A stretch of 23,118 nt of DNA from a virus, in IMG/VR virus record IMGVR_UViG_3300027573_000121, positions 1 through 23,118 of that record. One strand, 5' to 3'. Position 1 is the stretch's first letter. Each line of letters starts with the position of its first letter. Below, piece after piece: positions 1,229-23,063 of this stretch. The notes below the pieces were generated by a model that saw only the letters and a list, made by a program, of their open reading frames with translations, searched no databases and was not told the DNA's origin. Position numbers and translations under genes: made by a program.

Positions 1229-1673
1229 GCAGGAGCTTTTTATTGTCCTGTGTGAACTCCCTGAGGCTAAACTTTTAGGCATGGCAGAAAGCAAGCAGCT
1301 TAGATTTTTCGCTACCCGTGTTATTCTCAACATGGTAAAAAGCAAGACCTCCCGTTTTTATTATCAATTCCGTAAGCAAGTCCACGTGGAGCTACCAGAC
1401 ATGGCAGGCACACCGGATGACGGAGATTTTACACTAGAGCAGTTTGAGCAGGACTATGCAGACAAACTAGCAGCCACCCTAGCAGCCAAAGACAAACTTA
1501 ATTGGTATCAGCAGGAGATACTAGAGCAGTATATCCTCCACGGAAGTGCTGGTAAAATGGTAAAGGACATGCAGGCAAGGCTAGGGGGTAACTGCATCCC
1601 CAAACGGTCAATTTTGCACACCGTAAAAGAGGCAACTACACAAATACGTAACCAAGTAAACAAAAACAAATGA
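1131..1673 (+). CDS. Sigma-factor-like protein
   Basis: This 180-residue protein has the look of the compact sigma-70-related proteins found in Bacteroidota phages. The N-terminal half (LREDIKQELFIVLCELPEAK, then LRFFATRVILNMVKSKTSRFY) resembles the helical region 2 core. The C-terminal half (NWYQQEILEQYILHG, then a basic stretch with IPKRSILHTVKEA) could form a region-4-like helix-turn-helix. If so, it would bind host RNA polymerase and redirect it to phage promoters; candidate targets are the AAAGYATATTTAG sites in the structural region (inference). It starts inside the preceding gene with a 98-nt overlap, and its TGA overlaps the next ATG, so the three genes look co-transcribed. No motif is decisive, so confidence in function is moderate. 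Confidence 0.55.
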   Translation: MKRNQVLTELYNSRELADLLTKMQPENLREDIKQELFIVLCELPEAKLLGMAESKQLRFFATRVILNMVKSKTSRFYYQFRKQVHVELPDMAGTPDDGDFTLEQFEQDYADKLAATLAAKDKLNWYQQEILEQYILHGSAGKMVKDMQARLGGNCIPKRSILHTVKEATTQIRNQVNKNK

Positions 1674-1924
1674 ATATTATCTACAACGTACTGCTAGCAG
1701 CATGTACAGCTTTTTATTTCGTGGAAGTTCTGGAACTCCACAAAGGCAAACTTTCATGGATGAACATTAAACCCTTTAACTGCACTATTTGCATGTCTGC
1801 TTGGTTCGGGCTGGCACTAGGCCTGACAGACGGCTTTGGTGTGCACAGTTTGGACATAATGATATTTAGCGGTATTGCAGGCATAGTCCTGAGGACTGTA
1901 ATATACAGGCTTTACAAATTCTAA
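1670..1924 (+). CDS. Small membrane protein with CxxC
   Basis: This 84-residue protein overlaps the previous stop by ATGA. It has a hydrophobic N-terminal segment (about 3-20), a central NCTICMSAWFGLALGL segment (about 37-52) combining a CxxC with the start of a second membrane helix, and a third hydrophobic stretch (about 62-80). The pattern P-F-x-C-x-x-C-x-x-x-W resembles small DUF1360-like inner-membrane proteins, which often occur in phages without a known role. No lysis function can be assigned: the topology is not diagnostic of a holin and no endolysin is adjacent. Confidence 0.7.
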   Translation: MNIIYNVLLAACTAFYFVEVLELHKGKLSWMNIKPFNCTICMSAWFGLALGLTDGFGVHSLDIMIFSGIAGIVLRTVIYRLYKF

Positions 1925-1938
1925 CCCCTATGAAAACA

Positions 1939-1967
1939 AGGGAGGCTCTGTAGGTCTCCCTATTTTC
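1939..1967 (+). terminator. Hairpin with short U-tract
   Basis: AGGGAG (1939-1944) pairs with CTCCCT (1956-1961) across an 11-nt loop and is followed by ATTTTCT. No promoter is visible between it and the ATG at 1988, so it may only partly terminate. Confidence 0.6.
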
Positions 1968-1987
1968 TAACCCCACAACCACAACCA

Positions 1988-2347
1988 ATGAAACAGGAGC
2001 ACATAGATATTTGCGAAAAGTACTTAAACAGGTGGCACATGCTACGGGATACTAAAACTATTTCAGGCATTACCGTGCAGATAGTAGACGAGCTTATAAA
2101 AGTCTACAAGGAACACAACAAGGGAAAGGAGAGCTTTTGCAGGTGGTGTCCTGACAGCATAGTAAGTCTGGTAAAGCAGGTGTACCTAGCCTATGAAAGG
2201 GACGCACCCAAGCCAGTTATTGAGACTGTGCTAGAGGTAAAAGTAGAGAGGCCAAACGGAGTAAAGCCTACACCCATAGCTGTTACATTTGATTCAATTT
2301 TACCAAAGACTGAAAAGCCAAAAAGACGTAACCAATGGAGCAAGTAA
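1988..2347 (+). CDS. Hypothetical phage protein with CxxC-PDS motif
   Basis: The 119-residue product is soluble and basic at its C-terminus (KPKRRNQWSK). Its most distinctive part is SFCRWCPDSIVSLVKQVY (about 48-65), a Cys-x-x-Cys followed by a helix; I associate similar segments with small Bacteroidota phage proteins upstream of ParB or terminase genes, but cannot name a function. It follows a terminator-like hairpin and an A/C-only leader (CCCCACAACCACAACCA) with no Shine-Dalgarno sequence. Its last 13 nt overlap the ParB-like gene, so the two are probably translated together. Confidence 0.65.
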   Translation: MKQEHIDICEKYLNRWHMLRDTKTISGITVQIVDELIKVYKEHNKGKESFCRWCPDSIVSLVKQVYLAYERDAPKPVIETVLEVKVERPNGVKPTPIAVTFDSILPKTEKPKRRNQWSK

Positions 2348-2877
2348 AAGAGGTAGCCCTGAGCCTAATAAAGCCTAACCCAAACAACCCACGGCTAATA
2401 AGGGATGACAGGTTTAAAAAGCTGGTAGCCAGCATAAAAAAGCACTCAGGCATAATGGCTCTGAGGCCTATTGTTGTGGAAAGCTGGAGCAATCCAATTA
2501 TCCTAGGTGGTAACATGCGTTTCAGGGCATTGAAAGACCTAGGCTATAAGTATGTGCCAGCAGAGTGGGTACGCACGGCAGAGAGCCTAACAGACAAGGA
2601 AAGAGAGGCTTTTGTGGTGCTGGACAATGCCAGCTTTGGAGAGTGGGACATAGACATACTAGCAAACACATGGGAGACAGCAGACCTACAAGCATGGGGC
2701 TTAGAGTTGCCTAGCTTTACTGCCCCTGTAAACGATTTGCAGCCCATTACAGACCACCAAAGCCAGCCCTTAGTACTTTCTGAGGAGGAGGCACAAGAGG
2801 CTCAGAATAGCCCTAATAGCACTAAAATAACAGAGGTGGTGTGCCCTGAGTGCAGCCACAGCTTTAGAGTTAGCTAG
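2335..2877 (+). CDS. ParB/Srx-like domain protein
   Basis: This 180-residue protein begins with a ParB N-terminal-like domain: IKPNPNNPR (about 12-20), then KKLVASIKKHSG, and GGNMRFRALKDLG (about 58-70), equivalent to the ParB GEHRxRA box that binds and hydrolyses nucleotide (CTP in true ParBs). A region rich in E/W (about 95-125) follows, then a flexible stretch and CPECSHSF near the C-terminus, which gives a Cys pair for a possible small zinc site. No helix-turn-helix partition domain and no ParA are visible, so plasmid-like partition is unlikely. Phage proteins with this domain commonly lie before terminase genes and may act as nucleases or DNA-modification partners. The specific role here is unknown. 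Confidence 0.8.
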   Translation: MEQVKEVALSLIKPNPNNPRLIRDDRFKKLVASIKKHSGIMALRPIVVESWSNPIILGGNMRFRALKDLGYKYVPAEWVRTAESLTDKEREAFVVLDNASFGEWDIDILANTWETADLQAWGLELPSFTAPVNDLQPITDHQSQPLVLSEEEAQEAQNSPNSTKITEVVCPECSHSFRVS

Positions 2878-2930
2878 CATTTACCCAAAACAAATTTTTT
2901 TATATATACTTTAAACCCACAACCACACAC

Positions 2931-3149
2931 ATGGAAAATAACCAAGTATCAAAAGAACAAGCAGAGCTTATACTGGCAGAGCTGGAGATGAACATTACCC
3001 AAGCATGGGCAAAGCACAAGTTCCTCAGCAAGCAGCTAGAGGCTTTAGAGAATGAAGCAGGCAAGCTGGAAAGAGACCACAAAAAAGTAGCGGCAGCTAT
3101 TGCCAGCGCAGAGCAGCCAGTAATAGAGGCAGAGCCAGTACAAGATTAA
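2931..3149 (+). CDS. Small coiled-coil protein
   Basis: This 72-residue acidic protein is almost wholly helical, with heptad-like spacing of Leu/Ile/Ala between about residues 8 and 60 (AELILAELEMN, then FLSKQLEALENEAGKLE). It probably forms an oligomeric coiled coil. The leader is A/C-rich (CCCACAACCACACAC) with no Shine-Dalgarno sequence. I see no recognisable promoter, only TATATACTTTA upstream, which is a weak match. Function unknown. Confidence 0.6.
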   Translation: MENNQVSKEQAELILAELEMNITQAWAKHKFLSKQLEALENEAGKLERDHKKVAAAIASAEQPVIEAEPVQD

Positions 3150-3154
3150 CACCT

Positions 3155-3412
3155 ATGAGAACAGCCACCCATTTTATAGCAGTTTGGGGCACAGGCACAA
3201 GCAGGACAGGGTATTCACAACTAATGGAAGTGAATGCCCTAACTGCATTCATAGACGGGCTGGCAGACTTTAAAAGCATCTACCCCGTAGCAGTATGGAA
3301 GATAAAAGAGGGGCACAAGGCAAGGTATAGCGAGGCAAACCTTTGGGCATGTGAAGGTAAACCAGACAGGATGACAGACAGCTACAGTAGGCTATATGAC
3401 AGAACGGCATAA
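3155..3412 (+). CDS. Hypothetical protein
   Basis: The 85-residue product begins 5 nt after the previous stop and so belongs to the same transcription unit. It has a beta-rich start (THFIAVWGTGTSRTGYS), a helix (NALTAFIDGLADF) and a second beta strand (YPVAVWKIKEG), suggesting a small alpha/beta fold. I cannot match it to a family. Confidence 0.55.
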   Translation: MRTATHFIAVWGTGTSRTGYSQLMEVNALTAFIDGLADFKSIYPVAVWKIKEGHKARYSEANLWACEGKPDRMTDSYSRLYDRTA

Positions 3413-3433
3413 ATAAGCATCTTACAAGCAATT

Positions 3434-3895
3434 ATGAAACCAAGAAAGAAGGGCAACCCAAAGCCAAAGACAGAGCAAATAGAGCCATACCAATGGCCTA
3501 AGGGACATAGCGGCAACCCTAACGGCAGACCCCGCAAGCTAATGAGCAAACTGGAGGGAGGCTACAAAAATGACGAGATAAACACCACAGTAATGAACAT
3601 AGCAGCCCTAGACATGGAAGGGCTAAAGAAAGTCTTTGAGGACGAAACAGCAACTATACTGGAAAGGTCTGTAGCCCATGCTTTATACAAAGGCTTTACA
3701 AAGGCCAGCCTGTATAATCTGGAGACGGTTATAACCAGAGCGCACGGCAAGCCAAAGGAGCAGGTAGAAATGAAGCAAGAGGTGAACCTTGCAGCTATGA
3801 CAGTCCACGTGGTAAAGGTGGACACACCACTAGCCAGCTCAGAGAGCGAAGTAGACACTACAAGGCCTGACACAAACACCAAGATAAGCCTTTAA
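3434..3895 (+). CDS. terS: Terminase small subunit candidate
   Basis: The 153-residue protein begins with the KGHSGNPNGRP motif (about 23-33), the signature of DUF5681-type proteins that commonly sit just before large terminases. A helical core follows (about 45-120), with ATILERSVAHALYKGFTKASLYNLETVI, compatible with oligomerisation, and a disordered acidic tail. Small terminases recognise the phage packaging site and regulate the large subunit. The assignment rests on the motif plus the TAATG overlap with the large subunit at 3893-3897; there is no clear helix-turn-helix, and DUF5681 alone is not specific to TerS. Confidence 0.7.
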   Translation: MKPRKKGNPKPKTEQIEPYQWPKGHSGNPNGRPRKLMSKLEGGYKNDEINTTVMNIAALDMEGLKKVFEDETATILERSVAHALYKGFTKASLYNLETVITRAHGKPKEQVEMKQEVNLAAMTVHVVKVDTPLASSESEVDTTRPDTNTKISL

Positions 3896-5061
3896 TGATA
3901 TTCCAGACCTCCCCACTATACGAGGCTAACCTGAACACCACAGCAGACGTGGTGGTAAACCAAGGCGGCACAAGCTCAGGCAAGACCTACAGCATAATGC
4001 AGGTACTGTTTACTATTGCCATGCAGGAAAATAACGCACTTATAACGGTAGTGGGGCAGGATTTCCCAAACTTAAAGGTAGGTGCACTCAGGGACGCACA
4101 GAACATTATTAGGGACAGTCCAGTACTACAGAGTGTCATAACCAAGGCCAACAAGAGCACCAGCACCTACGAGTTTGCCACGGGCAGCGTAATGGAGTTT
4201 ATGAGCTATGACGATTGGCAGGACGCAAAGAGTGGTAAGAGGGACTACTTGTTTATTAATGAGGCCAACGGCATACCCTATAACATGTACTGCGAGCTAG
4301 CCCTGAGGACACGCAAAAGGATATACATAGACTATAACCCAAATAGTGAGTTTTGGGTACACAGGGAGGTGCTAGGCAGGCCTACTGTGCAGCTCATAGT
4401 ATCTGACCACAGGCATAACCCTTTTCTGTCCCAAAAGACACGGGACAAAATAGAGGCACTAGCGGAGAGCGACACAGAGCTGTGGAGAGTGTACGCACGT
4501 GGACTGACAGGTAAGGTAGAGGGCTTAGTGTTTCGTAACTACGCAGCAGTACCAGCCCTACCAGACGGGGGCACATTTGTGGGCTATGGTATGGACTTTG
4601 GATTTACCAATGACCCCACCACCCTTGTGGAGGTATGGAAGCAAAACGGGGAGCTGTGGATTAATGAGTTAATCTATGAGACAGGCCTAACTAACCAAGA
4701 CATAAGCGAGCGCATGAAACTACTAGGCATCCCTCAGGGCAGGGAGATAACAGCAGACAGCGCAGAGCCTAAGAGCATAGAGGAGCTTAACAGGCTAGGC
4801 TGGAATGTACGGGGCGCTAACAAGGGGCAGGACAGCATACGTAATAGCATAGACATTCTAAAGCGGTATAAACTGAACCTGACACAGCGCAGCCATAACC
4901 TGAGGAGAGAGGTAGGTGGCTACAGGTGGAAGACAAATAAAAATGGCACACTAGAAAATGTGCCAGTAGATGCCAACAACCACACCATAGACGCTTTGAG
5001 GTACGTGGCTTTAAATAAGCTCTCAGAGAACGTGGGCAAGGGCAAGTATACAGTAGCCTAA
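3895..5061 (+). CDS. terL: Terminase large subunit
   Basis: The packaging motor and nuclease, 388 residues, of normal length for the PBSX/Terminase_3 type. Walker A is GGTSSGKT (24-31). Walker B is YLFINEAN (118-125) with Glu123 as catalytic carboxylate. A DYNPN motif (146-150) is probably the coupling/motif III region. The RNase H-like nuclease shows its acidic residues in GMDFGFTND (Asp234), TADSAEP (Asp288) and HTIDALRY (Asp366). The ATPase drives DNA into the prohead through the portal and the nuclease cuts genome ends. The start overlaps the small-subunit stop (TAATG). It lacks a portal gene next door: the portal is about 15.6 kb downstream. Confidence 0.96.
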   Translation: MIFQTSPLYEANLNTTADVVVNQGGTSSGKTYSIMQVLFTIAMQENNALITVVGQDFPNLKVGALRDAQNIIRDSPVLQSVITKANKSTSTYEFATGSVMEFMSYDDWQDAKSGKRDYLFINEANGIPYNMYCELALRTRKRIYIDYNPNSEFWVHREVLGRPTVQLIVSDHRHNPFLSQKTRDKIEALAESDTELWRVYARGLTGKVEGLVFRNYAAVPALPDGGTFVGYGMDFGFTNDPTTLVEVWKQNGELWINELIYETGLTNQDISERMKLLGIPQGREITADSAEPKSIEELNRLGWNVRGANKGQDSIRNSIDILKRYKLNLTQRSHNLRREVGGYRWKTNKNGTLENVPVDANNHTIDALRYVALNKLSENVGKGKYTVA

Positions 5062-5654: not shown

Positions 5655-5725
5655 GCAAATATATACCGGCCAAAATTACTATCCAAATTTATTTCAAATT
5701 ATTTTTTAAAATACTTTCCACGTGG
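5655..5725 (-). promoter_or_regulatory. Bacteroidota-type promoter with upstream AT block and CCACGTGG
   Basis: On the minus strand, TATATTTGC (5663-5655) is the -7 element and TTTG (5687-5684) the -33, with a 20-nt spacer. Upstream lie a run of A/T with a second TTTG and the palindrome CCACGTGG (5718-5725). The layout matches the promoter at 15834-15905, which faces the other way. Confidence 0.8.
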
Positions 5726-6073: not shown

Positions 6074-6225
6074 TGGCAAAGGAAAAATATTTTTTACAAC
6101 TATTTCAGTTTACACACGGCAACAATGCTGTGCATTTATATCCTGCATGGAGGGCAAAGGTTTTGAGGAGTTGCCAAAGAATGAAAGCTCAACTAATGAT
6201 TAACCGTTTAAACAAACACAAATGA
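6073..6225 (+). CDS. 50-residue protein between two coupled genes
   Basis: A frame of 50 residues runs from ATG 6073 to TGA 6223-6225. Its start overlaps the previous stop (TGATG) and its stop overlaps the next start (ATGA), so it fits exactly between two real genes. It starts MAKEKYFLQLFQF, has a central HLYPAWRAKVL, and a basic C-terminus (INRLNKHK). The precise overlaps are the main evidence. It is too short for a confident family; a small tail or head accessory protein is possible from position. Confidence 0.65.
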   Translation: MAKEKYFLQLFQFTHGNNAVHLYPAWRAKVLRSCQRMKAQLMINRLNKHK

Positions 6226-6818
6226 ACTGGACAGATATAACCGTAGAACAATACCAAGGCCTGCACTCTATAATGACGGACAAGGCAGCAGACGAATGGG
6301 ACAAGGAAATAGCTTGCATAGCTTACCTGACAGGCAAGAACATAGACAGCATAATAGACATGCCCTACAGCGAGTATAAGGAGCTGCGTAAGGGCTTTGC
6401 TTTCCTGAGCGAGGATAAGATTGAGGGGCAGGCCAAGAAGGTTATAAAGGCCAACGGGAAGACCTACAGGGTACAGTTTAACCTTACAGAGCTGCCCGTG
6501 GCTAGGTACGTGGAGGTGAAACACTTTGCACAGGAGGACTATGTAAAGAACCTGCATTTAATGATGGCCAGTATAGTAGTACCAGACGGATTGCCTTATA
6601 GCCACAAGCACCACAGCCTCTATGCAGAGGACATGAAGAAAGCCAGCATAGTGGACGTGCATAACACAGGGGTTTTTTTTTGCAAATTATACGCAAGATT
6701 GATACCGAATATCAAGGGCTATATGGCACAGATGATGACGGAAACGGGGCTGACACCGATACAAGCAGCCAGCCACGTGGAGGGTTTATGCAACGCTATG
6801 GCTGGATTTACAATATAA
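6222..6818 (+). CDS. Tail assembly chaperone, short form (gpG-like)
   Basis: This 198-residue protein is the zero-frame product of the frameshifted chaperone locus. It starts with TDITVEQYQGLHSI, a common opening of these proteins in Bacteroidota phages, and is largely helical. It lies upstream of the tape measure, as the lambda G/T locus does, though with three genes between. Such chaperones coat the tape-measure protein and recruit tail-tube subunits; they are absent from the finished virion. Near residues 151-154 the gene contains T9 (6673-6681), where some ribosomes should slip. Beyond it the zero frame remains open for 46 codons, so this region is coding in two frames. Assignment rests on position, the slip site and the overlapping downstream frame. 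Confidence 0.8.
   Translation: MNWTDITVEQYQGLHSIMTDKAADEWDKEIACIAYLTGKNIDSIIDMPYSEYKELRKGFAFLSEDKIEGQAKKVIKANGKTYRVQFNLTELPVARYVEVKHFAQEDYVKNLHLMMASIVVPDGLPYSHKHHSLYAEDMKKASIVDVHNTGVFFCKLYARLIPNIKGYMAQMMTETGLTPIQAASHVEGLCNAMAGFTI
6673..6681 (+). promoter_or_regulatory. Programmed -1 frameshift site (T9)
   Basis: Nine T residues are read GTT TTT TTT TGC in frame zero (codons begin 6672). T TTT TTT at 6674-6680 is a valid X-XXY-YYZ slippery heptamer. The -1 frame has a stop at 6662-6664 and stays open from 6665 to 6946, so entry must occur by slipping here. RNA polymerase slippage on T9 is an alternative mechanism. Confidence 0.85.
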
Positions 6819-6949
6819 AACTATTGAGCACCCTAAAAGTAATATCACTAGATGAGGCATGGCAGATACCCACAAGGGAGGCCTTAAACCTGTTAAGCTA
6901 TTTGAAAGCAGAGGAGAGCTACCTAAAACACCTAAGAAATGGCAGTTAG
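6680..6949 (+). CDS. Tail assembly chaperone, T-domain frameshift extension
   Basis: After a -1 slip, translation continues from codon 6680 for 89 residues to TAG 6947-6949, making a fusion of about 242 residues with the first 153 codons of the gene at 6222. There is no ATG at the head of this frame (the codon at 6680 is TTG, inside the T-run) and no ribosome-binding feature, so independent translation is unlikely. The segment carries YGWIYNI and VISLDEAWQIPTREALNLL then YLKAEESYLKHL, the pattern expected for the chaperone T domain that contacts tail-tube protein. The last 11 nt overlap the next gene. The short/long product ratio matters for tail assembly in known siphophages; here it is unmeasured. 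Confidence 0.82.
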   Translation: MQIIRKIDTEYQGLYGTDDDGNGADTDTSSQPRGGFMQRYGWIYNIKLLSTLKVISLDEAWQIPTREALNLLSYLKAEESYLKHLRNGS

Positions 6950-7590: not shown

Positions 7591-8766
7591 ATGGCAATAA
7601 CATTAAAGCAAGCCTCAGGAGCTTATGACTTTAGGCTAAGTGCACACAGCCCTTTGTGGTTTGTGGTGAGTAGTGATAACACGGCACAGGATAATTTCAA
7701 ATTTGTGTTTGAGGTGTTCATAGGTGGTGTAAAGGTAGCAACCCTAAAGAGGTGGCCACACCCTAGCACAATATATGGCAGTATTGACGTAGCCCCAATA
7801 GTGAGGAGCTACCTATCTAACAACTACCTGCTAGAGCCTAGCCCTGCCTCAGGTGCGTGGTACGTAGACTATGACGTAAAGGTAGGGGAGGAGTATGGTA
7901 GCCCACCAACTACCTATTTAAACCTAAACTCTTGGCTAAATGTAAGGGCTTACAACTCATACGAGGACATTACAGGCACGTACCTAAAGAGCCAAATATT
8001 TACCAAGCAGGACAAGCTACTGACGAGCAGGCCAATGACCTACGAGGGACGCAAAACAGAGCTAATAAGTGTGCCCTACTGGAACTATTCAGACCCTATA
8101 CTTACCCCCTACGATTTAAACGTATATGACAGCGCAGGTGGTTTGCTTATCACAGAGGAAAGGACTATGCTACTAAGTCACAACGTGGTAGACTGTAGCC
8201 TAGCAAACGTAGACCTTATTACAGACACTATAATAGCAAACGCAGCCAGCCTAGAGCTTGTGATTGGTAGTGAGACCTTCACTATTAACTACTGCGAGGC
8301 AAGGGCTTACACGGGCAGGACGGTGCACTTTTTGAACAAGTACGGAGGCTATGAAACCTATTCCTTTACTGGCAAGAGCAGGATGACGGCAGACATAGAC
8401 CGCAAAGAGTATGGCTTACAGCAAGACCAACTTTATGACAATGGCAGCACGGTAGCTATGACCCCGCTAGAGGAGGGCACTACTAACGTGTACAGGGGCA
8501 GCAAGAGGACAGCCCACGTGGGGAAAAGGTACAAGTATAAGCTGTCAAGCGCACACCTCTCAGACGAGGAGTTTACATGGCTTGCAGAGCTGGTGGCCAG
8601 CCCTATGGTATACCTGTACATGCCTGACTTTGACAATGTGCAGAAAGCTATGCCAGTTAAGATACTTAACACTAACTACGATTATCTTCGTATTGAAAGT
8701 GACAAAGTAAACTGCTTAGAGATTGATGTAGAGATACTTACGGACTTCAATTCACAATTCGCATAA
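7591..8766 (+). CDS. Tail structural protein, 391 residues
   Basis: The gene follows the previous one after 1 nt. The protein is beta-rich and has almost no long helix, as expected for a virion protein. Its best recognised segment is VHFLNKYGGYETYSFTGKSR (about 246-265), a W/F-L-N-[KR]-[YF]-GG pattern I associate with structural proteins upstream of the tape measure in Bacteroidota phages and prophages. It pairs with the 700-residue gene that follows. Likely part of the tail tip or baseplate; which protein cannot be told from sequence. Confidence 0.6.
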   Translation: MAITLKQASGAYDFRLSAHSPLWFVVSSDNTAQDNFKFVFEVFIGGVKVATLKRWPHPSTIYGSIDVAPIVRSYLSNNYLLEPSPASGAWYVDYDVKVGEEYGSPPTTYLNLNSWLNVRAYNSYEDITGTYLKSQIFTKQDKLLTSRPMTYEGRKTELISVPYWNYSDPILTPYDLNVYDSAGGLLITEERTMLLSHNVVDCSLANVDLITDTIIANAASLELVIGSETFTINYCEARAYTGRTVHFLNKYGGYETYSFTGKSRMTADIDRKEYGLQQDQLYDNGSTVAMTPLEEGTTNVYRGSKRTAHVGKRYKYKLSSAHLSDEEFTWLAELVASPMVYLYMPDFDNVQKAMPVKILNTNYDYLRIESDKVNCLEIDVEILTDFNSQFA

Positions 8767-8781: not shown

Positions 8782-10884
8782 ATGACATGGGAGATATATG
8801 TAGAAGGGCAGAAAATAGACCCACCAGAGGGCACAAGTGCTCAAATAACATTTAACATAGATGACATTAGGGACTTTGCGGCACGTAACACGGCATTTAG
8901 CAAGACCATTATACTACCTGCCACAGCCACAAATAAGAAAGTATTTGGCCATGTGTTTGACGCTGGCAGCAGTAATATAGTGGACGATGAAAACCCTAAC
9001 GTAGGGTACGACTACAACGCTAGCAAGGCAGCTAGCTGCATTATGTTTATAGACCAGATGCAGGTATTTAAGGGTGTTATTCGTATTATGGACATAGTGG
9101 TGGACGGCAGCTACATGGAGTTTGAGGTGGCAGTATTTGGGGAGCTAGGTGGCTTAATCAGTAACATAGCAGACAAGAAACTGGAGCAGCTAGATTTTGC
9201 AGCCTATAACCACACATTTAACTTAGGCAACCTCACAGGCTCATGGTCAGAGGATTTTTTATTTCCCTCAGGCACGGGGTACTACTACCCACACATGGAC
9301 ATGGGGTACAGCACGGACAAAATCATTTTTCCTATTGAGAGCTTTAGGCCAGCCCTGCACGTGAGGGAGTATGTGGACAAGATGCTAGACCAAGCAGGCT
9401 ACACGTTTGCCTCAGACTTCATGGACACGGATTACTTTAAACGGCTTATTATACCCTTTAACGGGGCTTATCCTGCCAAGGTGGTACAGACAGCTTTTCA
9501 GGCTAGCATGGCAACCTACACCAGCCCTAGTGGTGCAGGCAGTACTGGATTTTTCCAGCAAATACCCATTAATGACGTAGTAGGCACTAACTATTTTAGG
9601 TTTGTGGCTGAGGCTGGAGCTGTCCCTGAGCACATTGTGTGGGACAGGGCAGATACGGTTAAGATGAAAGCTAAATTCACAGCAAACTGGACAAGAGCCT
9701 TAGGCACAGCGTTTAACCTCAAACTAACCATAGTGAGAGTGCCAAATGGCAACACAGCCATACCAAATGAGGAAATAGTGTTATATGAGGAGGTTGTGAC
9801 AGGCACAAGTGGCACAATAAACGTAGAGCTGCCTATAGACGTGGAGCAGGGTGATTGGTATAACCTGTGGAGTAACTGCACGGTTATAGACGGTAGTCAA
9901 ACCTTCACCTTTACCCCGTATAACTTTTACTTTGTAGGCTCTCCCGATATTGCTATCCCTCTTACGTTTAATGATAGCGTAGATATGAATAGCTGCATAC
10001 CTAAAAATGTATTTCAGCTAGACCTCCTCAAGTGGCTTATTAAAATGTTTAACCTGTATATCTACGAAGACCCTGACACGGTAGGGCACGTACTTATAAA
10101 GCCCTACGTGGACTTTTACGGTACTACTGTGGAGGATTGGGACGGCAAGCTAGACAGGAGCAAGCCATTTAAGTACACACCCATGGGAGAGATAAACAGC
10201 AGGAGCTATGAGTATACCTACAAAGATGACAAGGACTACTACAACGAGCTGTACAAGACAAAATACCAAGAGATATATGGCAGCAGGTTCTATGACACAG
10301 GGCTGGACTTTGTAAAGGACAAGAACAAGGTAGAGGTAGGCTTTAGCCCCTCCCCGCTAGTGCAGTACAGTAATAGTGACAGGGTGCAGGTAGCTGTGTA
10401 CAAAAAGAAAGAGGACGGCACAGAGGAGAGAATGGCACACGGGCTGCGTATACTGTTTAGGTCTGACGCACCACAGCCCTGCCAAGATTGGACTATTAGC
10501 TACATATCTGGAGGCACACCCCTGACTAACCTCATGGACTATGGCTATGCTTATGCAGGCCACGTGGACAGCGTAGACGCTCTAGCTAATGACTTAAATT
10601 TCGGTGTACCTCAGGAGCTATACTTTACAATAATTGCAGGAGACCTGAGCGCAAACCTGTTTAATGTTTTTTGGAGCAGGTACATAGGGGAGGTAAGCGA
10701 CAAGGACAGCAAGCTATTAAAGGGAAACTTTAAGCTAACTCCGCAAGATATTATGACTCTTGACTTTAGCAAACCTAAATATATTAATGGCCAGCTCTGG
10801 AGGCTAAACAAAATAATAGACTGGAGCACGGACGGTATAGAGAGTACAAAATGTGAGTTATTAAAAGTAATTGACTTAGTATAA
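8782..10884 (+). CDS. Large tail protein, 700 residues
   Basis: The longest protein in the window. Its N-terminal part includes DFAARNTAFSKTIILPATAT (about 31-50) followed by NKKVFGHVFDA, a motif typical of a large tail protein in Bacteroidota siphophages and prophages. The middle is beta-sandwich-like; the C-terminal third (KYTPMGEINSRSYEYTYKDD and YYNELY) resembles the region common to these proteins before the tape measure. It probably forms part of the tail tip or central hub that contacts the host surface. No enzymatic motif is visible. The two large tail genes precede the tape measure rather than following it, the reverse of lambda order. Confidence 0.6.
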   Translation: MTWEIYVEGQKIDPPEGTSAQITFNIDDIRDFAARNTAFSKTIILPATATNKKVFGHVFDAGSSNIVDDENPNVGYDYNASKAASCIMFIDQMQVFKGVIRIMDIVVDGSYMEFEVAVFGELGGLISNIADKKLEQLDFAAYNHTFNLGNLTGSWSEDFLFPSGTGYYYPHMDMGYSTDKIIFPIESFRPALHVREYVDKMLDQAGYTFASDFMDTDYFKRLIIPFNGAYPAKVVQTAFQASMATYTSPSGAGSTGFFQQIPINDVVGTNYFRFVAEAGAVPEHIVWDRADTVKMKAKFTANWTRALGTAFNLKLTIVRVPNGNTAIPNEEIVLYEEVVTGTSGTINVELPIDVEQGDWYNLWSNCTVIDGSQTFTFTPYNFYFVGSPDIAIPLTFNDSVDMNSCIPKNVFQLDLLKWLIKMFNLYIYEDPDTVGHVLIKPYVDFYGTTVEDWDGKLDRSKPFKYTPMGEINSRSYEYTYKDDKDYYNELYKTKYQEIYGSRFYDTGLDFVKDKNKVEVGFSPSPLVQYSNSDRVQVAVYKKKEDGTEERMAHGLRILFRSDAPQPCQDWTISYISGGTPLTNLMDYGYAYAGHVDSVDALANDLNFGVPQELYFTIIAGDLSANLFNVFWSRYIGEVSDKDSKLLKGNFKLTPQDIMTLDFSKPKYINGQLWRLNKIIDWSTDGIESTKCELLKVIDLV

Positions 10885-10893: not shown

Positions 10894-12651
10894 ATGAGTA
10901 GTAAGACAGTAATAGGTGCAGAGTTTAGGCTGGATAGTGCAGACGCACTAGCGAGTGTAGGTAACGTAAAGAAAGCCCTTAAAGAGGCTAACCTTGCCCT
11001 ACATGCAGCACAGGCAGAGTTTGGGGAAATGTCAGCACAGGCTATTAAAGCAGCAAAGCAGGTAGCAAACCTGAGGGACGCACTAGGGGATGCTAAAAGC
11101 CTTACAGAGGCCTTTAATCCAGATAAAAAGTTTCAGGCATGGACTAGCGCACTAAACGGTGTGGTAGGTGGCTTTGCTGCCGTGCAGGGAGTTATGGGCT
11201 TAGTAGGTTCTGAGAGTGAGGAGGTGGAGAAAGCCCTACTAAAGGTACAGTCTGCCATGGCTATTATGCAAGGGGTGGATGCTGTTACAGATAGCATACA
11301 AGCCTTTAAAAATTTAGGGGTAGTTATCCGTGCCAGCACTATCTACCAGACAGCACACAACGCTGTAACAGCAGTAGCAGCAGCCGTTACAAGGCTGTGG
11401 AGCAAGTCTGTGGACACTACTACAGCGTCTTTTGCTAGGCTTAAATGGGCTATAGCAGCTACAGGTATAGGCGCTCTTTTAGTAGCTCTGTACTTTGTCA
11501 TAGATGCCATGGACTTGTTTGGAGACAGCACAGAGGAGGCAGCTAAGGCGCAGGAGAAACTAAAGGCAGCAACGGAGAGCCTAAATGCCTCAATAAGCAG
11601 GCAGTTAGATTTTCTGGACAGGACAAGAAAGCTGGAGAGGTTAAGGCTGGAGGCAGCAGGAGCTACAGCAGCACAGTTAGAGATTTTTGACCAGAACACT
11701 TACAAAAAGAGACTAAAGGCAGCAGAGAGAGGCTTGCAGGATGCTATAGACGCAGGCCTGAACCTGCAAGAAGCCACTAAGGTGCTCAATGACGTAAAGG
11801 AGGCTGAGGAGGCAAGATTACTCAACAATAGCATACAAAGAAATAAGGCAGCACATGACCAAAAGTTAAAAGACCAAGAGGAGGCACACAAGAAAGAGCT
11901 TGAAAAACTAAAAGCACAAGAAGATAAGAAAAACTTTTTAACCAGCCAGCCTGTCACAGGCTCTAGTGCTATCACGGACGCTATTAAGGCAGCAGACAAG
12001 GAGCGAAACGAGGCAGAGGACAAGAAAATAGAGGACGCTAAAGTGAAGGGTGGGCTATTTGTAGAGGTAGCACAGAACGTAGCAGGACACCTAGGTATGA
12101 TTAACGGCCAAATTACACAGAATGAGGCAGATAATGCAGAGGCAGCTAAGGCTATAAGAGAGCAAGAGGTACTGCATAAGGCGCAAATGATGCAGGCAAG
12201 TGCCTCTATTATGGACAGCCTAGCAGAGCTGGCAGGACGTAACACGGCAGCAGGTAAGGCTTTTGCCATTGCCTCTACAGTCATAAGTACGTACCAAGCT
12301 GCACAGACAGCCTATGCTAGCCAGTTCATGCCAGCACCAGACCCCTCTAGCCCTATCCGTGGTACAATAGCAGCAGCAGCCGCTATAGCTGGAGGCCTTG
12401 CACGTGTTAAAAATATTATGGCTGTAAAAGTCCCTAACGGTGGAGGAGGTGGTGGAGTTTCTATGCCCTCAGGAGGAGCTGGAGGAGGTGCGCCCCTCAG
12501 GCCTAGCTACGGCTCAGTTACCACCACGCTGGACAGGAACAGCATTAACAACATGGGAAACGGGGCTATTAAGACCTATGTACTTGAAACGGATGTAACA
12601 AGTTCGCAGGAGCAAATTAAACGCATAAACAGAGCCGCAAGACTAGGGTAG
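10894..12651 (+). CDS. Tape measure protein
   Basis: This 585-residue protein is helical and Ala-rich, with coiled-coil stretches (about 20-70 and 212-345), a hydrophobic segment suited to membrane insertion (about 185-207, IAATGIGALLVALYFVIDAM), further hydrophobic helices (about 85-103 and 155-166), and a Gly-rich tail (about 509-535). This is the usual makeup of a tape measure protein, which sets tail length and passes into the host envelope during DNA entry. With the usual 0.15 nm per residue, the tail would be about 90 nm, on the short side. It follows the chaperone locus by three genes rather than one. Confidence 0.85.
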   Translation: MSSKTVIGAEFRLDSADALASVGNVKKALKEANLALHAAQAEFGEMSAQAIKAAKQVANLRDALGDAKSLTEAFNPDKKFQAWTSALNGVVGGFAAVQGVMGLVGSESEEVEKALLKVQSAMAIMQGVDAVTDSIQAFKNLGVVIRASTIYQTAHNAVTAVAAAVTRLWSKSVDTTTASFARLKWAIAATGIGALLVALYFVIDAMDLFGDSTEEAAKAQEKLKAATESLNASISRQLDFLDRTRKLERLRLEAAGATAAQLEIFDQNTYKKRLKAAERGLQDAIDAGLNLQEATKVLNDVKEAEEARLLNNSIQRNKAAHDQKLKDQEEAHKKELEKLKAQEDKKNFLTSQPVTGSSAITDAIKAADKERNEAEDKKIEDAKVKGGLFVEVAQNVAGHLGMINGQITQNEADNAEAAKAIREQEVLHKAQMMQASASIMDSLAELAGRNTAAGKAFAIASTVISTYQAAQTAYASQFMPAPDPSSPIRGTIAAAAAIAGGLARVKNIMAVKVPNGGGGGGVSMPSGGAGGGAPLRPSYGSVTTTLDRNSINNMGNGAIKTYVLETDVTSSQEQIKRINRAARLG

Positions 12652-12652: not shown

Positions 12653-12660
12653 CCACGTGG
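12653..12660 (+). repeat. CCACGTGG palindrome between genes
   Basis: One of 11 copies in the window and one of four outside genes. It directly follows the tape-measure stop and precedes an AT-rich stretch (TATATTTAA, 12677-12685) and the ATG at 12691. Confidence 0.5.
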
Positions 12661-14197: not shown

Positions 14198-15160
14198 ATG
14201 AGTTTTTCAGTAGCAACATTGGCGGCTTATGTAAAAGACAATAGCGATATTCTCTTAACTAAGACCGTATTAAGCCCTAAGACGGCAAAATTAATTGAGG
14301 CAGGCGGCACAGTTTTGACTGGCGTAAAATCCTCAGAGAGAATTGGCATTTTTGACACAGACGCAGTATTTCAAGCAGGAGCTTGTGGATTTACTCCCTC
14401 AGGAACTACCGCTATTACTCAGCGTAGTGTAACTGTAGGTGATATTAAAATCGAGGAGAGCCTGTGCTATAAGACTTTGGAAGCAAAGTACACGCAGAAA
14501 ATGCTCACAGCAGGTGTTTTGTATGATAATCCTACTGACTTTAATTTCTACCAGCTTTGGGTAGACTTGAAGATAGCAGCAGCCTCCCGTGCATTGGACG
14601 TAGCTATTTGGCAAGGTGACACAGGTAGTGGTACTGCAAACCTTAACAAGTTTGACGGTTTTATTAAGCAGATTGTAGCAGCCTCAGACGAGCTGGACGC
14701 TAACGCTACCCCTTACATTGCTACCCCTATTACAGCAGTAGCAGGCATTACCTCCTCTAACGTCATTGCAGCATTGCAGGCAGTAGTTAAGAGAACAGCT
14801 ACAGAGGTTAAGCAAAGTGCAGACTTCCGTGTGTTCATCGGTTATGATGTTCTGGAGTCTTACACCCTTGCCTTGCAAGCAGCTAACCTGTACCACTACA
14901 AGCCTGAGAACAGCGAGGAAATTACTATTGTAGGCACAAACGTGAAAGCAGTAGCAGTAGCGGGTTTATCAGCAGCTACAGGTATGTTCGGTATGCGTCT
15001 TTCAAACATGGTTGTAGGTACAGACCTTTTGTCTGACCAAACACAGGTGGAAGTATGGTACGACAAAGCAGACCAAGCGGTAAATTATCGTAATGCTTTT
15101 AAATACGGTGTAGGCATTGCCTTTACCAATGAAGTAACCAAATTTATTCCTACTCCTTAA
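14198..15160 (+). CDS. Major capsid protein
   Basis: The 320-residue protein is of normal size for an HK97-fold capsid subunit. It follows protease and scaffold. Features include an N-terminal helical arm (LAAYVKDNSDILL), QRSVTVGDIKIEESLCYKTLEAKYTQ (about 76-102), many Ala/Val strands, and a C-terminal NYRNAFKYGVGIAFTNEVTKF (about 295-316) typical of the P-domain end. No delta domain is fused, in keeping with a separate scaffold. Its codon use is distinct: no CTA or AGG codons and a single ATA, although these are common in neighbours, which suggests selection for high expression. A terminator follows directly after the gene. Confidence 0.85.
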   Translation: MSFSVATLAAYVKDNSDILLTKTVLSPKTAKLIEAGGTVLTGVKSSERIGIFDTDAVFQAGACGFTPSGTTAITQRSVTVGDIKIEESLCYKTLEAKYTQKMLTAGVLYDNPTDFNFYQLWVDLKIAAASRALDVAIWQGDTGSGTANLNKFDGFIKQIVAASDELDANATPYIATPITAVAGITSSNVIAALQAVVKRTATEVKQSADFRVFIGYDVLESYTLALQAANLYHYKPENSEEITIVGTNVKAVAVAGLSAATGMFGMRLSNMVVGTDLLSDQTQVEVWYDKADQAVNYRNAFKYGVGIAFTNEVTKFIPTP

Positions 15161-15833: not shown

Positions 15834-15905
15834 CCACGTGGCAAAAGAAAGTTTAAAAATAGTTTGCAAAAAGTTTGGTAGTAATGCAAACAGTACTATA
15901 TTTGC
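15834..15905 (+). promoter_or_regulatory. Extended Bacteroidota-type promoter with CCACGTGG
   Basis: TTTG (15874-15877), a 19-nt spacer and TATATTTGC (15897-15905) form the core. A block of TTTAAAAATAGTTTGC (15852-15867) lies upstream, and CCACGTGG (15834-15841) lies 32 nt before the -33. The block recurs at 18522 and 19208. Confidence 0.85.
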
Positions 15906-17234: not shown

Positions 17235-17266
17235 TTTGGTGGTAAAATACTTTCACCTATATTTGC
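17235..17266 (+). promoter_or_regulatory. Bacteroidota-type promoter
   Basis: TTTG (17235-17238), 19-nt spacer, TATATTTGC (17258-17266). An upstream block TTTAAAAATACTTTGAATAA resembles that of the other cassette promoters. The leader to ATG 17283 should be about 12 nt (ACAAACAAACACA). Confidence 0.85.
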
Positions 17267-18522: not shown

Positions 18523-18571
18523 AAATAGTTTGCAAAAAGTTTGGTGATAACATACAAAGCACTATATTTGC
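18522..18571 (+). promoter_or_regulatory. Extended Bacteroidota-type promoter
   Basis: TTTG (18540-18543), 19-nt spacer, TATATTTGC (18563-18571). The upstream block TTTAAATAGTTTGCAAAAAG is nearly identical to that at 15852. Leader to ATG 18590 is A/C-rich. Confidence 0.85.
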
Positions 18572-18883: not shown

Positions 18884-18925
18884 CCACGTGGGCAAGCCTC
18901 CTCCAGAGCGGGGAGGTAGCCCTTT
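18884..18925 (+). terminator. Two-step hairpin overlapping CCACGTGG
   Basis: GGGC (18890-18893) with GCCC (18919-18922) and CCTCC (18897-18901) with GGAGG (18912-18916) form a stem with a small bulge, followed by TTTAAAAA. CCACGTGG (18884-18891) overlaps its left foot. It sits 13 nt before ATG 18938 with no promoter between. Confidence 0.55.
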
Positions 18926-19273: not shown

Positions 19274-19702
19274 ATGACACACACAAACACACACAGCAGT
19301 AATACTTGCCCTAAATGCGGAGGAGCTGGTACTTTAGACTGGACTAGCCAAGACGGTGGAGTATGTTACAAATGTGAGGGTAAGGGCTATATAGGCGAAA
19401 TGCCTGCAGGCTTTGTAAAGTGCAGCACTAAGGAAATTAGAGAGGCAGCTAAGGAGCTGGTAAAGGTGGGTGTTTATAACTTAAAACAAAAAGACAGCAC
19501 GTTTAGGTGTTACCCAACCTATGAAATGGATGCAGATACCATTAAGGAGCTTGTCGAGAGGGGTAAGGTGTTTAGATTCAAGTATAGTAATTATTTTTTA
19601 ACTGTGCCAGACATGAGCATAACCTTTGGCGGAGATAGTGAGTACTGCTACAACTTAATAGTTGGTGGGGAGTTTTTGGAAATTAAACCAATAAAAAAGT
19701 AA
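19274..19702 (+). CDS. DnaJ-type zinc-finger protein
   Basis: The 142-residue protein has a DnaJ-like CxxCxGxG pair near the start: CPKCGGAG (12-19) and CYKCEGKG (31-38), one zinc-binding module. The rest (about 48-142) is an unassigned alpha/beta domain with helix STKEIREAAKELVKVG. There is no J domain, so it is not a co-chaperone of DnaK in the normal sense. Small phage proteins with this module are common and may bind nucleic acid or unfolded proteins. The start codon lies a few bases from the predicted transcription start, so the message may be leaderless. Confidence 0.7.
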   Translation: MTHTNTHSSNTCPKCGGAGTLDWTSQDGGVCYKCEGKGYIGEMPAGFVKCSTKEIREAAKELVKVGVYNLKQKDSTFRCYPTYEMDADTIKELVERGKVFRFKYSNYFLTVPDMSITFGGDSEYCYNLIVGGEFLEIKPIKK

Positions 19703-19709
19703 ACCACAC

Positions 19710-19740
19710 GAGAGCTGCCCACAGGTGTGGCTCTCCTTTA
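19710..19740 (+). terminator. Hairpin with weak U-tract
   Basis: GAGAGC (19710-19715) pairs with GCTCTC (19730-19735), with an inner CAC/GTG pairing, followed by CTTTAATT. It sits 12-16 nt before ATG 19752 and no promoter fits between. Confidence 0.6.
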
Positions 19741-19751
19741 ATTAAAAGCAA

Positions 19752-20003
19752 ATGAGAAACGCAGCAGACATAAGAGAAAGGCCTAAGGACATGGTAAGGC
19801 TCATTATGAGCAACCACAGGGACGGCACACTAATTACCACAGACATAGCCATAACCCACCTGCTTTACTTTGACGGGGAGCAGGAGGTGTTAGCCCCGCA
19901 ATGGATGCAGAGAGGGCTACTGCAAAAGTGGATTATAGAGAAAGGAAACAGGCTCTACAGGACGCAGTTAGAGCTAGTTAGTTGGCATGAGATATATTAC
20001 TAA
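19752..20003 (+). CDS. Small hypothetical protein
   Basis: The 83-residue product is mixed alpha/beta with a helix (RERPKDMVRLIMSNHRDG), a DIAITHLLYFDGEQEVLAPQ segment and a terminal WIIEKGNRLYRTQLELVSWHEIYY. The middle could be a small winged-helix-like fold. It depends on readthrough of the hairpin at 19710-19740. No family recognised. Confidence 0.65.
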   Translation: MRNAADIRERPKDMVRLIMSNHRDGTLITTDIAITHLLYFDGEQEVLAPQWMQRGLLQKWIIEKGNRLYRTQLELVSWHEIYY

Positions 20004-20004
20004 T

Positions 20005-20127
20005 ATGAACAAGGATATAAAGTATAGCCAGCACGAGAGGGTGCAGGCTCAGATACGCAGGCAAGAAAAGCGCCACAAGAAAGAAAGGCAGGCAGCTCTT
20101 GCACGGAAAGCAAGAAAGCCTATTTAG
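20005..20127 (+). CDS. 40-residue highly basic helical peptide
   Basis: A frame from ATG 20005 to TAG 20125-20127 codes for 40 residues, of which roughly 40% are Lys, Arg or His (RRQEKRHKKERQ, then ARKARKPI). It starts 1 nt after the previous stop and ends before a strong terminator, as the last gene of the cassette. The composition suits a nucleic-acid-binding helix. Its shortness leaves some doubt, but the spacing supports translation. Confidence 0.6.
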   Translation: MNKDIKYSQHERVQAQIRRQEKRHKKERQAALARKARKPI

Positions 20128-20196: not shown

Positions 20197-20208
20197 GCCC
20201 TCTCCTCA

Positions 20209-20242
20209 TTTGGCGCAAAGCCCTAGAAAGCATATTTAGGGG
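20209..20242 (+). promoter_or_regulatory. Candidate restart promoter, AAAGCATATTTAGGGG (copy 2)
   Basis: Identical 16-mer to 5780-5795, again preceded by AAAGCC. Here TTTG (20209-20212) lies 18 nt before CATATTTA, giving a possible -33. The ATG at 20245 is 2 nt away, so a leaderless start would result if this is a promoter. Confidence 0.45.
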
Positions 20243-20244
20243 TA

Positions 20245-20646
20245 ATGATTCAGCTAACCAAGGGCACTACAGTAGACGTAATAGTGACGGCAACCGAGAA
20301 GGTGACGCTTACAGCACCATACTTTCTGTGGGTATTTACAAACCCTGAGACTGATAACACAGTTACGTGGATAGTCTCCAGCGTAGATGACCAAAGCCCT
20401 TTCCCTGAGCGGTACAATGACTTTAACATGGACGTGGACGTGGTGTTTTTTATGCAACCTGAGGGGCAATGGCACTACAAGATTTACGAGCAGGATAATG
20501 ACACCAACACAGACCCCACGCTAGCTACTACCCTTGTAGAGCAGGGTATGCTCATTTTAAACAAGGCAGCAGCCAGCATACGAACTATTAAAAAGTTTGC
20601 ACCTACAGCAGCCACAATAAAAGTATTTAATGAAACCACAGAGTAA
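20245..20646 (+). CDS. Small virion protein candidate
   Basis: The 133-residue protein is beta-rich: TKGTTVDVIVTATEKVTLTAPYF, then VVFFMQPEGQWHYKIYEQD (about 66-84) and a C-terminal VEQGMLILNKAA. The pattern of a Gly-Gln-W-x-Y-x-x-Y/F strand followed by a VE-x-G segment is familiar from small structural proteins in Bacteroidota phages near tail and head genes. It overlaps the portal gene by 17 nt. It probably forms part of the virion or an assembly factor, exact role unknown. Confidence 0.55.
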   Translation: MIQLTKGTTVDVIVTATEKVTLTAPYFLWVFTNPETDNTVTWIVSSVDDQSPFPERYNDFNMDVDVVFFMQPEGQWHYKIYEQDNDTNTDPTLATTLVEQGMLILNKAAASIRTIKKFAPTAATIKVFNETTE

Positions 20647-22558
20647 AACAGACACAGTACATGTGCTCCAGTTTGCCGCTAAGGATATACCAGAGTACAA
20701 GGAGACCACTAGCGGGGCACGTAAGATAGTAAACTACGGGGCAGATAATAAGTTTCCAGACTACCTGCTAGAGCTTTACAGCAAGTCTCCAAAGCACGGA
20801 GCTATAGTAAAAGGCAAGGCCATGTACATAGCTGGCTCAGGCTTTGAGTTTAAGGACAAGCAAAGCGAGGGGCTTAATGAGAGCCTAAAGACAGTAAACA
20901 GGTACGGGGAAAGCCTTAACAAGGTAGGCAAAAAGTGCATACTTGATAATGAGATTTTCTATGGCTTTTACCTCCAGATTATCTATGGCAAGGGAGGCAA
21001 GGTATCGGACGTGCTCCACGTGGACTACAACAAGATACGGAGCAATGCAGATAACAGCATTTTCTATTATAAAGAAGACTGGAAAAAGACCACAGGAGAG
21101 GTAACCCCTTACCCCTGCTTTAATCCTGACAAGCCCACAGGTACACAGATACTATACTACAAAGGCTACAGGGCTGGCATACAGACCTACACTATACCTG
21201 ACTACCTGAATAGTCAAATGTACATTGAAAGTGACATTTTAGTAGCTGGCCATGTGCTGAACAATGCAAATAGCGGATTTACGGGCAGCAAAATGATTTC
21301 CTTCAATGACGGAGAGCCTAGCCCTGATGAGGCAAGAACCATAGAGACTAAGCTAAACGACAAGTTTACTGGCAGCAAAGGCAGCAAGCTGGTGGTGAAC
21401 TTTTCAGCAAACCCTAACGTAGCCCCCACGGTGCTGGACTTAGGGGCTAGCGATATGTCAAAGGAGAACTTTACCCCTGTAGATGAGCTTATAAGTCAGA
21501 ATATTTTTACAGGACACCAGATTGTTAGCCCTATGCTTTTTGGGGTACGCGTGGAGGGGCAGCTAGGTGGACGTAATGAAATGAGGGAGGCCTACGAGAT
21601 ATTTAAAAACACTTACATAAATAACAGGCAGCAAGAGGTAGAGGAGGTGTTTAATACAGTACTAGCCCTTAACGGCCTGCCTGAGGTAAGAATTGTGCCA
21701 GTAGAGCCAATAGGCTACGAGTTCAGCGAGCAGACCATAGTACAGGTAGCTCCTAAGGCCTATATACTTGAAAAATTGGGCATTAACCCAAATGACTATG
21801 CAGAGGACGATGTAGAACCAGAGGCCAAGGACGAGGCTAAGAATGCCCCTGAGCAGGTAGAGGAGGACGAGGACACGGAAGGAGAGGACGTAAAGAGCAA
21901 GACTAAAAAAAAAGAAAAGTTTAGCAGTCTAGATGACGAACTAGCCCTTACCTTATTTTCTCAGGTAGGGGAGGACAGTAAAGGCTATTTTAGGTATAGC
22001 AGCAAGAAGGTTTGTTTTCATTCAGACGAGGAGTGCAGGGCAGGAGAGATACAGGGCTACAGGCAGGCATTTGCTGAGATAACCATACTAGAGGCTAACA
22101 TTATTGACCTGCTAAAGAAGGACAAGAGAGCTACCCCTGAGGTTATAGCAAAAGCTCTGGAGGTCTCCCCTGAGCTAGTGCAGAGAGTGTTAAGGACGCT
22201 CTCAGACAAGGGAATGATAAAAGTAGGCACGGAGAAAGTGGGAGACGAGAAGACCACCACAAGGGACGTAACAGAGGGAGGCAAGGAGGCTATAAGCAAA
22301 AGGACTCCAACGAGCACGGAGGTATTTATTAAATACAGCTACGAAGGTCCTGAGGATGAACGTAATAGAGATTTTTGCGCCCACATGCTAGACCTAGATA
22401 AGATATACTCACGTGTAGAAATTGAGCAGATAAGCCAAAGGCTAGGCTACTCAGTTTGGGAGCGCAGAGGGGGATTTTACACTAATTCAGTAACAGGGGA
22501 AACCACACCCTACTGCCGCCACTATTGGATGCAGCACATAGTTTTAAAAAGAAAGTAA
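20630..22558 (+). CDS. Portal protein with long C-terminal extension
   Basis: The 642-residue protein has a portal-type core (about 1-370): YGADNKFPDYLLELYSKSP (36-54), KHGAIVKGKAMYIAGSGF (55-72), VLHVDYNKIR (128-137) and the clip/stem-like region with SPMLFGVRVEGQLGGRNEM (300-318). After this comes an acidic and Lys-rich linker (about 391-430), a helical segment, a winged-helix-like section (about 486-545), and a terminal domain with DFCAHMLDLDKIYSR (581-595), RRGGFYTNSV and PYCRHYWMQHIVLK (627-640). That last domain resembles Mu gpF/SPP1 gp7-like head-morphogenesis fusions with paired Cys/His. Portals form the dodecameric ring where DNA enters. The portal call is strong, the extension call moderate. 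Confidence 0.78.
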   Translation: MKPQSKTDTVHVLQFAAKDIPEYKETTSGARKIVNYGADNKFPDYLLELYSKSPKHGAIVKGKAMYIAGSGFEFKDKQSEGLNESLKTVNRYGESLNKVGKKCILDNEIFYGFYLQIIYGKGGKVSDVLHVDYNKIRSNADNSIFYYKEDWKKTTGEVTPYPCFNPDKPTGTQILYYKGYRAGIQTYTIPDYLNSQMYIESDILVAGHVLNNANSGFTGSKMISFNDGEPSPDEARTIETKLNDKFTGSKGSKLVVNFSANPNVAPTVLDLGASDMSKENFTPVDELISQNIFTGHQIVSPMLFGVRVEGQLGGRNEMREAYEIFKNTYINNRQQEVEEVFNTVLALNGLPEVRIVPVEPIGYEFSEQTIVQVAPKAYILEKLGINPNDYAEDDVEPEAKDEAKNAPEQVEEDEDTEGEDVKSKTKKKEKFSSLDDELALTLFSQVGEDSKGYFRYSSKKVCFHSDEECRAGEIQGYRQAFAEITILEANIIDLLKKDKRATPEVIAKALEVSPELVQRVLRTLSDKGMIKVGTEKVGDEKTTTRDVTEGGKEAISKRTPTSTEVFIKYSYEGPEDERNRDFCAHMLDLDKIYSRVEIEQISQRLGYSVWERRGGFYTNSVTGETTPYCRHYWMQHIVLKRK

Positions 22559-22559
22559 T

Positions 22560-23063
22560 ATGAAACCTATAGCATATTTTTTGAGCGAGGAAACGCTAAA
22601 GGAGCGCACAGTAGTTAGTGCCCACGTGGACACAAAGCTACTTAACCAAGCAATTTGGGACGTGCAGGAGAGGGTAATGCAGCCCATACTAGGCACTACA
22701 CTTTATAACAGGCTGGTAGCTGGCATAGATGCAGAGGACTTAACGGCAGAGGAGACCACCCTACTGGAGGACTACCTGACCAATGCAATGCTTTTTTATG
22801 TCATTGCAGAGCTGCCCTACATGTTAGGCTACAAGTTCCACAACAAGAACGTACTAAAGAAGACAGCAGAAAATGCAGAGGCAGCTAGTATGTCAGAGCT
22901 TGCAGACGTGATGAAGTACTATATGAACAAAGCAGAGTTTTACGAGCAGAGGGCTATAGTATTTCTAAAAGAGCAGTACAAGCTAGGGATATTCCCTGAG
23001 TATGCAGAGTGCTACGACATGCCCCCTAACCAGAGTGGCTACAGGTGTGGCATAGTTCTTTAA
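22560..23063 (+). CDS. Head completion / connector protein (DUF6712-like)
   Basis: The 167-residue protein begins 1 nt after the portal stop. It contains VVSAHVDTKLLNQAIWDVQERVMQPILGTTLYNRLV (about 18-53), typical of DUF6712-like head-tail connector proteins in Bacteroidota phages, a Glu-rich helical segment, and FYEQRAIVFLKEQYKLGIFPEY near the end. It is mostly helical, as expected for an adaptor that fits under the portal. Position right after the portal supports the call. Confidence 0.72.
   Translation: MKPIAYFLSEETLKERTVVSAHVDTKLLNQAIWDVQERVMQPILGTTLYNRLVAGIDAEDLTAEETTLLEDYLTNAMLFYVIAELPYMLGYKFHNKNVLKKTAENAEAASMSELADVMKYYMNKAEFYEQRAIVFLKEQYKLGIFPEYAECYDMPPNQSGYRCGIVL

Follow-up and report, generated by a model that had tools for sequence, protein, structure and literature searches.

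The octamer and the phage that carries it

The DNA considered here is a 23,118-nt stretch of an IMG/VR virus record (positions 1-23,118 of IMGVR_UViG_3300027573_000121), referred to below as the window, and the element in question is the exact 8-bp palindrome CCACGTGG, which occurs 11 times along it (Table 1). These copies had been listed in a preliminary description made from the sequence alone, and every coordinate was confirmed. The window corresponds to positions 16557-39675 of a 39,675-bp IMG/VR contig (IMGVR_UViG_3300009678_000097; hereafter G001), from which it differs by one gap in 23,119 aligned bases (99.996% identity). Being near-identical, the two records do not constitute independent evidence. 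They share the same end base, the single gap falls after approximately window position 15057, and both may have been assembled from a single phage. G001 carries 15 copies of the octamer, located at 573, 9877, 10989, 15115, 17938, 20361, 22274, 23329, 25070, 27116, 29209, 32391, 35441, 37573, and 39179, which amounts to a density of 378 per Mb.

The phage is an otherwise unremarkable virus of Bacteroidota bacteria and looks temperate. Its gene set includes a tyrosine integrase, an XRE-type repressor, a RecT-family protein, a VRR-NUC-like protein, a DnaD-like loader, and a BT4734-like primase, and its structural and packaging genes include those for a terminase, a portal, a protease, and a tape-measure-like protein. 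As had been claimed earlier, the coding copies in the window encode His-Val; all seven read xxC-CAC-GTG-Gxx. In addition, the copy at G001 10989-10996 falls within the integrase's conserved HxxR box (SHVARHTF), an active-site motif that accommodates the octamer.

Table 1. Positions of the octamer copies in the window and of the promoters and protein genes discussed in the text
Feature	Record	Position	Strand	Context
CCACGTGG copy	window	1382..1389	none	Within gene 1131-1673, His-Val frame
CCACGTGG copy	window	3805..3812	none	Within gene 3434-3895 (DUF5681), His-Val frame
CCACGTGG copy	window	5718..5725	none	Intergenic; 30 nt upstream of minus-strand TTTG/TATATTTG promoter
CCACGTGG copy	window	6773..6780	none	Overlap of genes 6222-6818 and 6680-6949
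CCACGTGG copy	window	8514..8521	none	Within gene 7591-8766, His-Val frame
CCACGTGG copy	window	10560..10567	none	Within gene 8782-10884, His-Val frame
CCACGTGG copy	window	12653..12660	none	Intergenic; 1 nt past stop codon of tape-measure-like gene, 30 nt before next start
CCACGTGG copy	window	15834..15841	none	Intergenic; terminator-like hairpin on one side, plus-strand promoter on the other, 32 nt upstream of TTTG
CCACGTGG copy	window	18884..18891	none	Intergenic; immediately past stop codon, 46 nt before next start
CCACGTGG copy	window	21016..21023	none	Within portal gene; encodes His-Val-Asp
CCACGTGG copy	window	22622..22629	none	Within gene 22560-23063, His-Val frame
Bacteroidota-type promoter TTTG/TATATTTG	window	5656..5687	-	Repeat-family member; octamer 30 nt upstream
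Bacteroidota-type promoter TTTG/TATATTTG	window	15874..15904	+	Same repeat family; octamer 32 nt upstream
'DnaA-like' protein	window	497..925	+	No Pfam, PHROGs or relevant PDB family match
ParB_N-domain protein	window	2335..2877	+	Matches ParB/Noc N-terminal domains only
71-aa Arc/CopG-like ribbon-helix-helix (RHH) protein	G001	9633-9848		PHROGs Arc-like, E 3e-6; Pfam RHH_5, 8.6e-5, under the Pfam curated cut-off

Enrichment and spacing of the octamer

Single-base composition predicts 0.23 copies of CCACGTGG in the window, close to the chance figure of about 0.35 given in the preliminary description, and dinucleotide shuffles of the window produced a mean of 0.13 and a maximum of 1, compared with the 11 observed. 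Codon-preserving shuffles, in which each protein and its codon usage were kept, gave a mean of 1.30 and a maximum of 5 in 4000 for the window, where one copy in a gene overlap was held fixed, and a mean of 1.6 and a maximum of 6 in 3000 for G001, against 15 observed. The maximum for the window is below the 10 or more copies that had been named beforehand as telling against the excess. The fully intergenic copies in the window number four, whereas the codon-preserving shuffles predict 0.016, so the earlier statement that these copies stand well above expectation (then placed at about 0.05) is borne out; in G001 the intergenic copies number five. Among the 6-8 bp palindromes of G001, perfect as well as gapped (arms of 3 and 4 bp), the most enriched is CCACGTGG. 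CCTNAGG also exceeds its codon-preserving expectation in this contig (37 vs 16.6), though far less strikingly. The enrichment of CCACGTGG is real, and chance and codon habit are excluded as its source.

The 24 one-mismatch forms of the octamer sum to 13 occurrences in G001, where 10.8 are expected. Since these near-misses remain at background, it is the exact octamer that is favoured; CCACGTGG displays neither the variant spread typical of a degenerate operator nor the depletion of near-misses expected from conversion. Its flanks hold weak signals only, at +1 (A) and +4 (G), and no extended consensus. The preference for the His-Val frame was considered as evidence of selection and rejected, because copies arising by chance in the shuffles take the same frame, which renders the frame uninformative.

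The smallest gap between copies is 1055 bp, a value reached by 0.09% of random placements (p ~0.0009). Between 9877 and 39179 the 14 copies follow one another at even intervals (coefficient of variation 0.37, p ~1e-4) in a test that is post hoc, as this subset was picked after the data had been seen, and when the whole contig is taken, with the 9.3 kb that separate the copies at 573 and 9877, the evenness is not unusual (p 0.17). The even spacing of CCACGTGG is suggestive only.

Relatives and host genomes

The closest terminase relatives of the phage are 60-64% identical and are found in Mucilaginibacter, Hymenobacter, and Chitinophaga genomes, while its structural genes are nearest to those of Chitinophaga prophages. 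Viral relatives searched whole contain 0-1 copies of CCACGTGG each and the prophage-region loci that were fetched contain 0-2, and in no other fetched prophage-region locus is any palindromic octamer equally enriched. None of the relatives reached through the capsid, primase, portal, XRE repressor, RHH, and DnaA-like proteins is enriched in CCACGTGG. The primase of locus L103 retains the same residues, PRGN, with the octamer absent, and the portal of L013 retains the His-Val-Asp (HVD) encoded at window 21016, again with the octamer absent in its record. Relatives thus have other codons or other residues at the octamer positions. No close relative in which retention of the intergenic copies could be followed was found.

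Approximately 990 Bacteroidota genomes, examined over three draws, hold CCACGTGG at no more than ~60 per Mb, compared with 378 in the phage, in a sample that may not include the true host. G740, the top outlier by control ratio, was rejected as not comparable, having 61% GC and a modest enrichment in stretches that had been chosen for the copies in them. As far as can be seen, the enrichment of CCACGTGG is a property of this phage lineage.

As candidates for phage-specific words in relatives, the top 8-mers of G003 and G417 were promising at first and turned out to be tandem repeats, and those of G020 are sequences upstream of starts. Tandem-repeat tracts at L012 3899-4304 and L188/L189 (G417) 19676-20090, with units of 15 bp and 18 bp, can pass for dispersed over-represented words when k-mers are counted. 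Within the phage itself, the DUF5681 protein is encoded directly upstream of the large terminase and is possibly a small terminase.

A proposed phage-wide recognition site and its candidate reader

The reading that best fits these observations, and which is advanced tentatively, is that CCACGTGG serves throughout the phage genome as a dispersed recognition site, under DNA-level selection in one temperate Bacteroidota phage lineage, with a predicted symmetric protein as its reader. A site recognised at the level of DNA is preferred because the octamer is exact, palindromic, present in coding and intergenic DNA alike, and built with synonymous codons, and a contiguous 8-bp palindrome points to a symmetric reader. 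The protein-binding site proposed in the preliminary description is plausible, whereas the regulators and the promoter association that it named have proved weak. A two-fold symmetric DNA-binding protein would read CCACGTGG and, by occupying some 15 spread sites, would act on the whole phage genome. It may silence or road-block transcription in the lysogen in the manner of stoperators or, alternatively, organise the phage DNA. A weaker step is that this reader would be phage-encoded, with the 71-aa RHH protein as its best candidate. It is also possible, though doubtful, that an exact palindromic address tag fills the genome of the temperate phage, with copies at least 1 kb apart and placed independently of gene boundaries, and that a putative phage-encoded symmetric reader uses it to control the genome as a whole or for self-recognition. 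In the literature searched, neither a phage system with such a self-placed palindromic address tag nor anything relevant on CCACGTGG in bacteria was found.

Helix-turn-helix dimers require a wider half-site spacing, while RHH dimers and restriction/modification enzymes can read short contiguous palindromes. For this reason the 71-aa Arc/CopG-like protein, whose gene ends 28 nt before the octamer copy at 9877, is tentatively favoured on its sequence as the best phage-encoded candidate. Three direct copies of AAGTGCACCCC lie between the RHH gene and the start of the integrase gene, at L008 (G001) 9865, 10062, and 10074, and an octamer copy is found directly beside the first. These repeats look like arm-type sites of an attP region, and the integrase probably uses them.

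The XRE repressor is unlikely to read CCACGTGG, since the octamer is missing from its divergent promoter region, where the perfect inverted repeat TACAAAGTTTGTA is found instead. The repeat lies at L008 (G001) 11689-11701, is the sole match in L008 even when one mismatch is allowed, and is likely the repressor's own operator. The preliminary description had looked for the reader perhaps among the regulators encoded in the first 3.5 kb of the window, which make poor candidates. The DnaA-like protein matches no family of relevance, and a single-sequence structure model of it was too weak for use. The ParB_N protein has solved-structure matches limited to its first ~100 residues, with no helix-turn-helix detected; it also matches methyltransferase-fusion families.

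The proposed site resembles the stoperators of Cluster A mycobacteriophages such as L5 and Bxb1, which are 13-bp asymmetric sequences that point in the direction of transcription and serve the immunity repressor as recognition sites (PMC6550527, PMC9283540). In both cases phage-specific sites are spread across a temperate phage genome, mostly away from promoters, numbering ~15-30 for stoperators and 15 here. However, CCACGTGG is a directionless 8-bp palindrome, two thirds of its copies are intragenic, and the XRE repressor apparently has another operator. Because stoperators are by definition asymmetric, 13 bp long, transcription-oriented, and repressor-read, CCACGTGG is not a stoperator. The operators of MetJ/Arc/CopG-type RHH proteins are short contiguous palindromes bound by a symmetric dimer, and usually occur as adjacent pairs or arrays at promoters. 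The octamer shares their form, and the phage encodes an Arc-like protein, but the octamer copies stand singly, with 1 kb or more between them.

Several points weigh against a dispersed recognition site read by such a protein. The location of most copies inside genes is unlike that of classical operators, and a site of only 8 bp would also be met with tens to hundreds of times in the chromosome of a host. The octamer is known from a single lineage in two near-identical records, which leaves its conservation over time unproven. The candidate reader remains a prediction. Several adjacent operators are the usual targets of RHH repressors, whereas the octamers stand alone, and a single-sequence structure model of the 71-aa protein shows no beta strand. 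Relatives of this protein amounted to one weak phage match, with none in 396 genomes, which leaves almost nothing with which to compare its inheritance and that of the octamer.

Alternative explanations

The alternative that survives best, although unlikely, is that CCACGTGG is a HIP1-like word, reflecting some activity of the host that is linked to a DNA methyltransferase or a comparable enzyme, with the phage sharing the habit of its host. HIP1 (GCGATCGC) is a feature of cyanobacterial host chromosomes in which orphan methyltransferases recognise internal sequences, and it behaves as an exact 8-bp palindrome running through coding and non-coding DNA (PMC4390886). CCACGTGG likewise exceeds expectation by far within and between genes, and the true host may lie outside the sampled genomes. 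Yet HIP1 pervades whole host chromosomes and is associated with orphan methyltransferases, whereas CCACGTGG is enriched in one phage and in no sampled host, given the ceiling of ~60 per Mb among the ~990 Bacteroidota genomes and the modest figure for the GC-rich G740. Among the phage proteins scanned, no methyltransferase was recognised, save for the ParB_N protein and its methyltransferase-fusion matches.

It is improbable that the octamer is a recombination or DNA-processing site preferred at regular intervals on the phage DNA, whether as a Chi-like element or as a target for proteins of replication or packaging. Chi sites are recognised in single-stranded form, are non-palindromic, and are enriched in the host chromosome. 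Like Chi, CCACGTGG is a short sequence favoured along a genome; its minimum spacing of ~1 kb, even distribution, and placement independent of genes would suit such a role, and the phage encodes RecT-family and VRR-NUC-like proteins. Against this, CCACGTGG is palindromic and is not enriched in any of the sampled Bacteroidota genomes, and the literature search found no Chi sequence for this group.

A role as an activator site at phage promoters, with a class I activator recruited through an octamer that lies ~30 nt upstream of the -33 element, is more improbable still. It draws on the two opposite-strand promoters near the copies at 5718 and 15834, for which the distances to TTTG given in the preliminary description (30 and 32 nt) are correct. 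Promoter association holds for these 2 of the 15 copies, and the two promoters are paralogous versions of one repeat, which possibly reflect a single duplication event. The repeat family occurs on both strands and consists of TTTG/TATATTTG with an upstream AAAAATAGTTTGCAAAAA element; further members lie at window ~17235-17265 and ~18540-18570 and at L008 (G001) 7654-7686. Only two of the eight promoter-like matches in the scan have the octamer, and the other family members are without it. A scan of IMG/VR for the same promoter and octamer layout returned only this phage and one viral contig, which holds a single octamer. Promoter activation may be a local use of CCACGTGG that leaves unexplained the 13 other copies, for which there is no matching promoter.

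There is little to recommend the view that biased repair or conversion generates the octamer and that it has no function. Such a process would account for a word that is exact, confined to one lineage, and devoid of any obvious logic as a site, but it should deplete the one-mismatch forms, which are not depleted (13 vs 10.8); it does not predict a minimum spacing, and no such enrichment was seen in the ~990 sampled genomes. Finally, chance combined with codon habit (His-Val written as CAC-GTG) retains almost no credibility, for although the His-Val frame is the one favoured by codon usage, the contig shuffles never exceeded 6 copies against 15 and the intergenic copies are left unexplained.

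Significance

Short palindromes are cut by restriction enzymes and for that reason are commonly avoided in phage genomes. The build-up of one palindromic octamer at even spacing, absent from the relatives of the phage and from the sampled possible hosts, points to a strong function at the level of DNA. If the reader of CCACGTGG were found, this phage would offer a simple model of how a prophage can be marked or silenced across its whole genome, and a case to set beside the HIP1 palindrome of cyanobacteria, which is still unexplained.

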